From NCBI RefSeq assembly GCF_005116675.2, contig NZ_CP050699.1, positions 248,001 through 312,000 of the forward strand: DNA of 64,000 nt, given 5' to 3'. Below, one piece after another: positions 48,204 through 51,327 of this stretch; the first letter of the stretch is position 1, and every line of letters begins with the position of its first letter. Origin of the DNA: Desulfosediminicola ganghwensis. Its GTDB lineage: Bacteria; Desulfobacterota; Desulfobulbia; Desulfobulbales; Desulfocapsaceae. The translations under genes and the position numbers were made by a program. The notes below the pieces were generated by a model. That model saw only the letters and a program-made list of their open reading frames with translations, was not told the DNA's origin and searched no databases.

Positions 48204-48452
48204 TCATTTCTCCGATACTGCTTTCTCCTGCCGGCACTGGATCAGCTCAAATAGCTGAGCCGGCCCACCCCGGAATATACAATACAGCCCAAGGCCGATC
48301 ACAAAGAGCGCGGTGAGCACGGAATCGTACCCTGTGTTGGAAAGTAAGCCAGTTCCGCGCAACAATTCCCAGCCTGAATACATCATCACCATGCCGATGC
48401 CTATGCGGCAAAGGTTCATAACCACGAAAGTGACTTTTTCTGCAAAACCCAT
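48204..48452 (-). CDS. Small membrane protein, 82 aa
   Basis: Not recognised. An 82-residue protein with two hydrophobic helices (about residues 7-27, VVMNLCRIGIGMVMMYSGWEL, and 38-58) and a hydrophilic C-terminal end (LIQCRQEKAVSEK). The ATG at 48452 follows AGGAGG at the right distance; a longer frame starts 13 codons upstream but has no ribosome site. It stands alone, with the 127-residue protein to its upstream side on the same strand after 70 bases. The strong ribosome site supports it being a real gene. Confidence 0.7.
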   Translation of the reverse strand: MGFAEKVTFVVMNLCRIGIGMVMMYSGWELLRGTGLLSNTGYDSVLTALFVIGLGLYCIFRGGPAQLFELIQCRQEKAVSEK

Positions 48453-48522
48453 GTTTCCTCCTGCAGAGGTCTGTTTTCCGGTCCGATACAATTCGACCGC
48501 AACAGCACTCTATAAGAGAAAT

Positions 48523-48906
48523 TTAATCATGGACGTATAACTCGTCGACTTCATCCCAGGCGTCCGGGTTTCCTTTTCTCAGCTGAACCAGCTGCCTGAA
48601 GTAATATACCAGGGCCACGATATAGCGCAGCTTGCACTCGATCGAGCAACGCGGATCACCGGGCGACATCTCATAAACCTCTTCATCACTGAGCACGATG
48701 ATCTTTTCGATCTCACTCAGCAGTTCGAGTTTTCTGATCCGCAGGAAGCGCTCAAGAGGCAGCACCACCGTCGGTGCATAGTTAAGCGCCTCCAGTCTTG
48801 CTGCGACCTCTGCAACTGTCCTGGCGTCGGCGATATCATTCAAGGCCCGCACCTCGTCCTGGAGTGCGCTCACCTCAAGCAAAAAATCAGATGCCGTTAT
48901 CATCAT
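48523..48906 (-). CDS. Hypothetical protein, 127 aa
   Basis: Not recognised. A soluble, strongly helical, acidic protein with leucine-rich N-terminal helices (VSALQDEVRALNDI), a CSIEC cysteine pair about two-thirds along (SPGDPRCSIECKLRY), and an aromatic helix IVALVYYFRQLVQL near the end. Two ATG codons are adjacent (48906 and 48903); a GGGAGGAG ribosome site directly upstream suits the second slightly better. It lies 97 bases from the E2-like gene on the same strand and may be co-transcribed with it. Confidence 0.65.
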   Translation of the reverse strand: MMITASDFLLEVSALQDEVRALNDIADARTVAEVAARLEALNYAPTVVLPLERFLRIRKLELLSEIEKIIVLSDEEVYEMSPGDPRCSIECKLRYIVALVYYFRQLVQLRKGNPDAWDEVDELYVHD

Positions 48907-49003: not shown

Positions 49004-50602
49004 CTACAGTCTCTTCTCAGTATACAAATTCCATTGGGAATTACCCGGGTCATACTGATAATAAAGTCTGTATTCAGTAGCCTTTCTCTTCACCAACTCT
49101 ATACACGACATTATAAAGACATAATTCCCGCCGGATCGCCCCATGTAGCGTACCTTAGGAGACCTAATCCCATCACGGTCAAGGCCAGGGTAGTGTTTCG
49201 TAAAGATATCTTTGTAATTTTCAACCAGGTAGTCACTGCCACTGTTTACCTGAGCCTGTTCCCGGAGACGGGCGTTTTCTCTTCTGGCCTCTGCCTGCAT
49301 CGAAGAAAGTGCTTTATCGGAACTGAAGCCGCTGCGGCTGATAAGCACCACTATTGACCTGTTACGATCAGCCGCCTGCTGATATTTTTTCTGCTGCTCC
49401 GCTGCGGCAGCCTCTGACCTGAGACTATTCACCCGAGCCAAGAGCCTCAATTTCTTAATCTTACTCAAGGTGGAAATGGTATTTTCCGGCAGCACCCGAC
49501 GGTCTGTCTCGAGGATGGTTACCACCTCGTCATAATATTTAGCTGCGCTCTGCCATTTGCCCTCATTATAGCGTTCATTCGCTGCACCAAGTGCCCTCTT
49601 AAGACGCGTTTCTGCAGCAAGACCCTTCAACTCCGAAAGCTCTGTCTCTAATTCATTTTCTTCGGCAAGCAATATTGCAGAATCAAGCTCTGCAAGTGCC
49701 CCTCTGAGGTCTCCTGTGGCGATCATGGAGGTTGCCGTCGTTCGCAGGCTGTCAATTTCGGTCAAAGCGTCGGCTTTGGCGAAAGAATAATAGATCCCGT
49801 TATGGGCAATGTTCCCCGCAAGCCCCTCCCGTATCTCTGTTGACTCGATGAATGACGCCAATCTGCTGGCCTGCTCCTCCCTGTCGAGCTGAAGCATGAA
49901 AATCCTGTCGAGTTTAATCAGAGCCCGCTCAGCACCTTCCAGCGCCTCACTGAATTGCCGCTGGTCCATGAGCTTTCGACCATCTTTAACCGAGTTTTCC
50001 GCACCCCGGATATACATCATATCGTGATAGTAAACACCGGCCCCAGCCAGAGTGGCCAGCAAGCCCATCGTGAGAACGAGACGCTTGAACACGATCCCAA
50101 AGGAGGATTCGCTCCGTTTCTTCTCGGCCTTGTCCGGGTCCATATGATATTTAAGCTCGGCGAGAGGAAGTTTACCTTCCTTTTCCCCATAGAACCTGGC
50201 GGCCTCCTGATTGAAGGTGCCATCACTGCTGTATATTTCACCGCGAATCATATCGGCGATGTATATTACCAGATCGGCCAGCGATTGATTTCTCTGCCAC
50301 TGGTCAGCGATACGGACTGCCTGTTCATCAACGTCCGGATGGTACGTGGCGGTAAGGGGTTTTACCGTTGGCGGGAAATGTGGATAGCCAAATGGAAGTT
50401 CTATCTGGATGCGATGCCGCCTTCGCACCTCGATCTTGCCTTTATCATTATATCCGTAACCGAACAGCTTATATTCAATAATGTACTTCTCGGGCGGCTC
50501 CTTTTCTGTCGAGACTATGGTGATTTGCGGGTAATGCCGCAATCTCTTTTTAAGAGCGTCATAGTCGTCGGCATAGGCGCCATGAGTCTGTGAATTGTTC
50601 AT
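49004..50602 (-). CDS. Membrane protein with N-terminal ubiquitin-E2-like (UBC) domain and C-terminal helical repeats
   Basis: A 532-residue protein. Residues about 40-140 follow the ubiquitin-conjugating-enzyme fold: a RIQIELPFGYPHFPPTV strand (about 64-80), the TATYHPDVDE loop (about 84-93), and the closing helices around NQSLADLVIYIADMI and NQEAARFYG. The E2 catalytic cysteine position reads RIAD instead of RIC, so Ala99 replaces it; the domain is probably a non-catalytic UEV-like binder. One membrane helix (about 171-192) follows, then about 250 residues of helical, TPR-like or coiled-coil repeats (REEQASRLASF, LEGAERALIKLDR, KWQSAAKYYDEVV) and a small beta-rich C-terminal domain (about 470-532) with RRLYYQYD-type strands. 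The topology suggests cytoplasmic E2-like and periplasmic repeat domains. The function is unknown. Confidence 0.72.
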   Translation of the reverse strand: MNNSQTHGAYADDYDALKKRLRHYPQITIVSTEKEPPEKYIIEYKLFGYGYNDKGKIEVRRRHRIQIELPFGYPHFPPTVKPLTATYHPDVDEQAVRIADQWQRNQSLADLVIYIADMIRGEIYSSDGTFNQEAARFYGEKEGKLPLAELKYHMDPDKAEKKRSESSFGIVFKRLVLTMGLLATLAGAGVYYHDMMYIRGAENSVKDGRKLMDQRQFSEALEGAERALIKLDRIFMLQLDREEQASRLASFIESTEIREGLAGNIAHNGIYYSFAKADALTEIDSLRTTATSMIATGDLRGALAELDSAILLAEENELETELSELKGLAAETRLKRALGAANERYNEGKWQSAAKYYDEVVTILETDRRVLPENTISTLSKIKKLRLLARVNSLRSEAAAAEQQKKYQQAADRNRSIVVLISRSGFSSDKALSSMQAEARRENARLREQAQVNSGSDYLVENYKDIFTKHYPGLDRDGIRSPKVRYMGRSGGNYVFIMSCIELVKRKATEYRLYYQYDPGNSQWNLYTEKRL

Positions 50603-50970
50603 CCCTTTCAGATACCTCTCCTCGTTTCAGCGTGCATATCCACCATCTCTTTCCCCTCGATGCACACTCACCCAAAATTCGATTTATTGTACCAGAGGCT
50701 ACGAGACAAGGAAACCTCAGAAAATTTTAAACTTTTTCAGTTGCTCCCTCAGCAGCCCGATGATTTTCCAATCTCTGATTTCATAGCTAACACAAAGTAA
50801 CGACTCAAATTACCCGCGCTCCTGATCAACAATTGAATATTGGCAGGATTTACCTGTATAATAGACCATATACCCACACCTATCTACGGATAGGCAATGC
50901 CGCGGCAGATGATTTTTTTTCTGCGATACGGTATTGCCCAATACCACGTAGCACTTCAGGAGGGATGACC
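50603..50970. other. Intergenic region, nothing clear
   Basis: These 368 bases separate the divergent E2-like gene and the cysteine-rich gene. No gene, repeat or strong hairpin was seen. Confidence 0.5.
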
Positions 50971-51327
50971 ATGACAATTCTACAGGAATTAAACGATTTT
51001 CAGAAAATGTGGACCTGGCTCAGCTCACACCCCGCACATGACCAGAACTATTACATACAGCACGTAATCAGGCTGGACACCCCCTGGAAAAACTCCTGCC
51101 CACTGTGTCATACAGATTCCGGCAAATGCCGTGAATGTGACCCGTTATGGCAATCAGATTCAGGAGGGCTGTGTGATGATCAGGACTCTCCGCTGAGCCG
51201 GTGGCAACAGACTTCGATACACGACCCGGACAACAGGACCTGGTTTGCCAACAGGGTCTCTCTGCTGGCCATGCGCGCCATCAGATCCCGCCGCCAGCTG
51301 GAGCAGGGGCAAACAGAACATGCTTAA
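50971..51327 (+). CDS. Small cysteine-rich hypothetical protein, 118 aa
   Basis: Not recognised. The chain has a tryptophan-rich start (MWTWLSSH), and a cysteine cluster CPLC (followed by CREC and a further Cys) that could form a zinc-binding knuckle or ribbon, then a basic C terminus (RAIRSRRQLEQG). ATG 50971 follows GGAGGG; two more upstream in-frame starts are possible (ATG 50965, MTMTIL). It converges with the recD2-type gene, whose stop lies nine bases away. No function can be assigned. Confidence 0.6.
   Translation: MTILQELNDFQKMWTWLSSHPAHDQNYYIQHVIRLDTPWKNSCPLCHTDSGKCRECDPLWQSDSGGLCDDQDSPLSRWQQTSIHDPDNRTWFANRVSLLAMRAIRSRRQLEQGQTEHA

Follow-up and report, generated by a model that had tools for sequence, protein, structure and literature searches.

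We refer to the whole stretch of DNA analyzed here, 64,000 nucleotides of the Desulfosediminicola ganghwensis genome, as the window. On its minus strand, an open reading frame at positions 49004 to 50602 encodes a 532-residue protein that, based on its translation and an AlphaFold2 model, crosses the membrane once and is a short paralogue in a family combining an E2 domain, a transmembrane segment and a helical solenoid. An open reading frame had originally been predicted at these positions and is present there, on the minus strand; the plus-strand reading of 49004 to 50602 contains six stop codons. The protein begins with a predicted E2/UBC-fold domain (residues 8 to 152; 50147 to 50581, minus strand) that is identified by Pfam UQ_con (E = 3.2e-7 for this piece), by a profile match to E2 proteins in the PDB and by the model, and in which alignment places the catalytic-cysteine position at Arg97 (codon at 50312 to 50314, minus strand). 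It is followed by a transmembrane segment at approximately residues 175 to 192 (50027 to 50080, minus strand), which was recognized in the sequence and lies inside a predicted helix of residues 171 to 213, and by a helical, TPR-like solenoid of residues 196 to 425 (49328 to 50017, minus strand), which is predicted to be periplasmic, appears as helices in the model and has a TPR_2 match below the cut-off (E = 1.9e-4). The C-terminal alpha/beta domain (residues 430 to 532; 49007 to 49315, minus strand) was modeled with a pLDDT of 95.4. Helices in the model continue to residue 470 and strands run from 479 to 526, in line with the membrane helix, helical repeats and C-terminal beta part of the original prediction.

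A hydrophobic segment separates the E2 and C-terminal parts in all 88 distinct proteins having both domains. Lys and Arg residues precede this segment in the window protein, and the N-terminal side is the more positive in 71 of the 88 proteins, with a tie in 10 and the reverse in 7. Because of this charge distribution, which is the sole basis for the orientation, we suggest that the E2 domain is located on the cytoplasmic side of the membrane. Using Foldseek, the C-terminal domain had no match in the PDB at E ≤ 0.001 (best, 0.1), and six sequence-profile hits over 12 to 24 positions were taken as chance. NCBIfam contains no named family for the window protein or for one long form (L046), and the sole match of the long form from the window genome, to MPN121 (0.087), is far below the cut-off. 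Kinship to Amuc_1098 pilus proteins was likewise rejected, as the matches (L151 and L139) are far below the cut-off and lie in helical-repeat parts. A PADLOC scan for anti-phage systems returned no match for the window protein or its paralogue, and this assignment was rejected.

Immediately downstream of the E2-like gene, and supported by homologues, are genes for a conserved 127-residue protein (48523 to 48906, minus strand) and a 95-residue protein (48204 to 48491, minus strand), the latter being the third gene of a possible operon. Upstream, a divergent conserved small gene (50833 to 51327, plus strand) has homologous open reading frames of 111 and 123 residues in two relatives.

Fold of the N-terminal domain and residue at the catalytic position

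Pfam UQ_con matches the entire window protein with E = 3e-6 (27.3 bits versus a cut-off of 27) and matches 22 of the 22 members of our first alignment at E ≤ 1 (best, 2.6e-9). Against the PDB, UBE2C was matched at 8.9e-7 by phmmer with the window protein and at 2.6e-9 by a profile of the 22 sequences. The AlphaFold2 model (mean pLDDT of 90.7) has the order helix, four strands, helices, with strands at residues 27 to 33, 39 to 51, 57 to 68 and 79 to 82 and helices at 3 to 21, 99 to 104, 108 to 119 and 132 to 140. Searching with this model in Foldseek, 48 of the 50 rows listed were E2 entries, with TM-scores (target length) of up to 0.71 among the rows listed; the other two were helical-repeat proteins. 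The Pfam RWD family was not reached by the window piece (14.5 bits versus a cut-off of 22.8), and 2 of the 22 alignment members matched RWD at E ≤ 1 (best, 0.039). Profile searches and structure prediction, the checks initially proposed for this domain, thus both return the UBC fold, and the E2 (UBC) assignment is confirmed at the level of sequence and model as homology beyond chance.

The original prediction also stated that the catalytic cysteine is replaced by Ala99. The cysteine is indeed missing; however, in alignments with Cys-bearing relatives, the residue that aligns with the Cys of their AVC/AIC motif is Arg97, two residues away, which also matches the ICL of UBE2C after placing a one-residue gap. 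In a set of 100 distinct domains including that of the window (22 of 122 rows were dropped as duplicates or for having fewer than 110 filled columns), the catalytic column contains Arg in 59, Cys in 34, Pro in 3, Ala in 2, Ser in 1 and Asp in 1. Active E2 enzymes have an HPN tripeptide with its Asn. None of the 80 domains listed has HPN, the tripeptide being HPD in 77, HPE in 2 and HPA in 1; HPD is present in the window domain and, in place of HPN, in the Cys-bearing clade. The window domain accordingly lacks both the cysteine and the HPN of an active E2, and a UBC fold without the cysteine, tethered to a membrane, agrees with the UEV-like reading proposed at the outset.

In a quick tree of the 100 domains, one clade of 33 rows comprises 32 Cys and 1 Ser, and a second of 62 rows (support 94) comprises 57 Arg, 3 Pro and 2 Ala and includes the short forms; one Cys row and two Arg rows lie outside both. 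The near-invariance of Cys within its own clade (32/33) fits catalysis there. The trait column was left out of this tree, which was built from few columns. Because its base is unresolved, three rows lie outside the clades and the branches to the two outgroup rows are very long, we do not claim a single origin of Arg. Four Cys rows are labeled Desulfobulbaceae at NCBI, so that the clades do not separate neatly by named family; taxon names at the order and family levels are used as in record titles. A second cysteine, in a PPxC motif, accompanies a Cys at the catalytic column in 33 of 34 domains, compared with 2 of 59 domains having Arg there, and also occurs in the Ser row and the Asp row.

Long and short forms in the Desulfobulbales

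The window genome also encodes an 855-residue copy in which the catalytic Cys is kept. The window protein is matched in 42 of the 58 genomes searched (own included), and a full-length short form is present in 6 of these 58, which belong to two genera (G000, G002, G003, G004, G021 and G033). The Cys position is occupied by Arg, Pro or Ala in the six short forms and in Desulfobulbus and its kin; G002 holds both forms, with Ser in its long one. Desulfobulbus elongatus has an Arg long form, and Desulfosediminicola flagellatus has both forms, with Cys in the long one. The linker between the E2 domain and the membrane segment is 16 to 21 residues in the six short forms, and its median over all 88 proteins is 194.5. 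From these sequence comparisons, the window gene is an additional, short copy that has no long linker before the membrane and groups with the Arg clade. In a sample of the phylum, 12 of 395 genomes (own included) matched the E2-domain profile, 10 of them within the same order. Beyond the phylum, the E2-domain search consisted of a scan with one heptapeptide, from which we used the best 80 of 147 loci ranked by likeness to the window domain, a selection biased toward close relatives and the Arg form. By sequence, the E2-transmembrane-solenoid proteins are a family of the Desulfobulbales, the group related to Desulfobulbus and Desulfopila. At one locus (L111:5968-8475), two frames of 566 and 262 residues contain the E2 and C-terminal parts of the long gene separately, through either a sequencing error or decay.

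Both other short-form genomes of the window's genus encode homologues of the 127- and 95-residue proteins, in this order, downstream of the short gene, and the small neighboring genes noticed originally are therefore real. Of 56 genomes (own included), 17 have homologues of the 127-residue protein, and 11 of these 17 have no short form; in G004 the homologue lies approximately 30 kb from the short gene, and in G021 and G033 on a different contig. Around the 127-residue homologues, in four stretches, the sole other match to a window gene was to a different gene (L157). Because the protein is found without the short form and unlinked in G004, G021 and G033, it is not an obligate partner of the E2-like protein, and the partnership that the original prediction proposed to check was rejected. 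In all three genomes of the second genus (L026, L027 and L028), the short gene directly follows clpS-clpA on the same strand (clpS-clpA identified by Pfam for L028 only).

The long form keeps the same flanking genes in most loci, whether it has Cys, as in the window's family, or Arg, as in Desulfobulbus and its kin. Counting loci with enough flank among the best 80 of 147, a divergent gene for a cNMP-binding/DUF4388 protein is found no more than 800 bases away in 16 of 18 Cys loci and in 44 of 52 non-Cys loci, 60 of 70 overall (for example, L004:6694-7758, with Pfam run on L004), and a convergent SIS/CBS (kdsD-like) gene lies within 1500 bases in 17 of 18 Cys and 41 of 44 non-Cys loci. These common flanks support orthology of the Cys and non-Cys long forms. 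The four short forms within the 80 loci were counted apart and have neither gene. In seven loci from cable bacteria and kin (L061, L068, L080, L092, L093, L100 and L117), the SIS/CBS gene is the sole sought neighbor that is kept. Many long-form loci also have secDF, a gene for a CxxCxxCC-domain protein and a HAD gene upstream, and dsrAB-like genes downstream; secDF, metK, ahcY and dsrAB near the long form were read by eye from translations, as were other neighbor names not assigned by Pfam. The divergent cNMP/DUF4388 protein is a possible regulator or partner, and the sole candidate partner that recurs beside the long form.

Conservation of the domain and copies without it

Mean identities in 120 sampled pairs of Cys long forms were 52% (E2 domain), 31% (middle part) and 39% (C-terminal domain); the corresponding values in 120 pairs of Arg long forms were 61%, 38% and 41%. 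In each set, the E2 domain was more similar than the middle part in 120/120 pairs and than the C-terminal domain in 119/120 pairs (pooled, 240/240 and 238/240). The E2 domain again had the highest identity in the Arg short forms (3 pairs) and the Pro short forms (3 pairs), and the single Ala pair had 58% identity in the C-terminal domain versus 51% in the E2 domain. Because the E2 domain has the highest identity of the three parts in Arg and Pro forms, we conclude from these sequences that it is under selection even without the Cys; since this holds in the Arg long forms too, the Arg form is not decaying.

The domain can nevertheless be dispensed with: in G027, a gene for a 503-residue protein at the usual locus (L153), between kdsD-like, HAD and secDF-like genes, has no E2 domain and encodes approximately 41 residues before the membrane segment. 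Distant homologues of the body of the protein (L149 to L152) also have no E2 domain. Three of these (L149, L150 and L152) lie near NrfD-, ferredoxin- and cytochrome-like genes of a redox complex, as judged by eye.

Search for a ubiquitin-like conjugation system

The original prediction suggested that the protein may belong to an undescribed ubiquitin-like system and proposed a search for a conserved gene for a ubiquitin-like protein (Ubl), an E1-like protein or a JAB protein. Among the conserved neighbors of the short or the long form, judged by eye and in a few cases by Pfam, we found no Ubl, E1, JAB or RING gene. A YukD-type Ubl was matched in 0 of 56 genomes, own included; among 14 control genomes, B. 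subtilis alone matched. Prok-JAB had no match in the window genome, and matched in 30 of 56 genomes at E ≤ 0.001, in 17 of them above the cut-off. The linkage of E1, Ubl and JAB genes expected of bacterial Ubl operons (types 6a-6e, Bil, Bub and CBASS type II) was not observed. Membership in such a system is not supported by these searches.

ThiF was matched in 53 of 56 genomes, and a ThiF-type E1 encoded elsewhere could in principle serve the E2-like protein. Two genomes with an E2-like gene, G047 (Ala form) and G014 (Cys form), have no ThiF match, which may reflect assembly gaps (one contig in G047, approximately 230 in G014). In G009 (Cys form), ThiF and JAB hits are adjacent, on a different contig from the E2-like gene. 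The window genome has six ThiF matches, of which five surroundings were read by eye: thiamine genes, a MoaD/ThiS-like open reading frame (L141), two others and a DUF6791-ThiF gene. This last gene (L144, 5854-7670; G000:C1, ~799.9-801.7 kb) lies beside a DUF6527 gene, both by Pfam, among transposase-like genes; no Ubl was recognized nearby by eye, and the locus may be a fragment of a polyUbl-type (6e-like) cassette.

Outside the order, the E2-domain profile was matched in G392 and G082. The G082 copy has 1054 residues, with Asp in the catalytic column, a membrane segment and repeats. The G392 domain matches the family profile at 1.1e-33 and keeps the Cys and HPN; the protein has a zinc-ribbon-like stretch below the Pfam cut-off. 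It is encoded in an operon-like run (L138, 4104-15795) with, by Pfam, a YukD-like Ubl, a ThiF E1, JAB, FHA, Prok-RING_1, the E2, and DnaJ plus zinc ribbon, and, by eye, an AAA ATPase and an 824-residue subtilisin-like protein. We take this operon to resemble those of Burroughs et al. Because this distant relative lies in a Ubl-E1-JAB-RING-E2 operon, the E2 domain of the family was, judging from the sequences, probably derived by recruitment from an E2 of a bacterial Ubl-conjugation system and has since lost that role.

Discussion

We propose, with a probability of roughly 0.55, that the window protein acts as an adaptor spanning the membrane, with a UEV-like domain that binds without catalyzing; the E2 fold would then probably act as a binding module outside a ubiquitin-like tagging pathway. 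This reading builds on the observed fold, layout and constraint, and for the membrane side, the binding and the partners we infer the following. By analogy to eukaryotic UEV domains, which bind without covalent transfer, the E2 fold would bind a protein or peptide non-covalently in the cytoplasm, and the solenoid and C-terminal domain would engage a partner in the envelope, on the side of the periplasm.

The cysteine of the long form invites a different explanation, in which this form functions as an active E2 anchored in the membrane, accepts a MoaD/ThiS-like protein from a ThiF-type E1 encoded elsewhere, and has the Cys-less window copy as its UEV-like partner, as Uev1/Mms2 are the UEV partners of Ubc13. 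The presence of Cys in 32 of 33 members of its clade, of both forms together with a MoaD/ThiS-like open reading frame beside a ThiF hit in the window genome (L141, by eye), and of adjacent ThiF and JAB hits in G009 speak for it, as does the G392 relative that keeps its Cys inside a Ubl-E1-JAB-RING operon. Nevertheless, we consider it unlikely: HPD replaces HPN in the Cys clade, G014 has the Cys and no ThiF match, G002 has both forms yet Ser in the long one, and Desulfobulbus and its kin combine these flanks with Arg, with no Cys partner seen in the parts of their genomes searched. A further reading, to which we attach quite a low probability, is an undescribed transmembrane pathway of the Desulfobulbales, in which the cytoplasmic E2 fold would read a Ubl or peptide signal and hand it on to the periplasmic solenoid and, in genomes such as that of the window, the Cys and Cys-less membrane-bound copies would pair at the inner membrane as a bacterial equivalent of Ubc13-Uev1. 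It is also improbable, in our view, that the PPxC and AIC cysteines of the Cys clade make up a redox or metal site by which binding is switched, with Arg as a fixed charge instead in the other clade. The co-occurrence of the two cysteines (33/34 Cys versus 2/59 Arg domains) is what this idea would explain, but shared ancestry alone would yield the same pattern, and the Ser and Asp rows carry the PPxC cysteine as well.

Two further explanations concern the gene as a whole. The position of the short gene directly downstream of clpS-clpA in all three genomes of the second genus might indicate that it belongs with ClpS/ClpA proteolysis, as a membrane receptor for substrates; we regard this as very unlikely, as clpS-clpA is not adjacent in the window's genus and does not recur beside the long form. 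We see still less chance that the E2 domain is a functionless relic hitch-hiking on a solenoid protein. Its absence from the G027 gene at the usual locus and from L149 to L152 would fit a relic, whereas its conservation, higher than that of the other two parts compared in Cys as well as in Arg long forms, argues against it.

The adaptor reading concerns an E2 fold that stands outside a Ubl operon, is fused to a membrane protein and is kept in many genomes of one order. In the literature searched, which did not include Burroughs 2011 and 2012, we found no description of this membrane family. The family, in which one column is occupied by Cys, Arg, Ala, Pro or Ser and one copy lacks the domain, is a natural comparative series that allows asking when an E2 ceases to be an enzyme and what the fold binds later, a transition from enzyme to binder that is mostly considered in the context of eukaryotic UEV and RWD domains.

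Among known systems, the nearest UQ_con (PF00179) protein is UBE2C/UbcH10, which has the same fold as the window protein and aligns with it over the PFGYPxFPP and HP motifs and the Trp that follows the active site; the window protein differs in having Arg97 for the Cys, HPD for HPN and a membrane anchor, and no cognate Ubl or E1 was found. The E2 of the G392 operon matches the family profile, but keeps the Cys and HPN, has a zinc-ribbon-like stretch and is surrounded by a Ubl-E1-JAB-RING cassette. Inactive bacterial E2/RWD-like domains occur with E1 and JAB in polyUbl operons of type 6e, according to Iyer et al. 2006 (PMC1779556), and inactive bacterial E2-like domains in polyUbl operons are also described in a 2024 review (PMC11354881). 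The type 6e domains are likewise bacterial E2 folds without the conserved Cys, but polyUbl, E1 and JAB are together in their operon, and none of these was seen beside the genes of the window family. YfgM-type inner-membrane proteins have an N-terminal transmembrane segment and a C-terminal periplasmic domain (PMC9643414); compared by layout alone, both have one transmembrane helix followed by a periplasmic part, if the predicted orientation holds, and the window protein differs in having an E2 fold ahead of the membrane.

TSG101 and Mms2/Uev1 are eukaryotic UEV domains. By analogy, the window protein has in common with them a UBC fold without the catalytic Cys that is likely a non-covalent binder; in contrast to them, it is bacterial and transmembrane.
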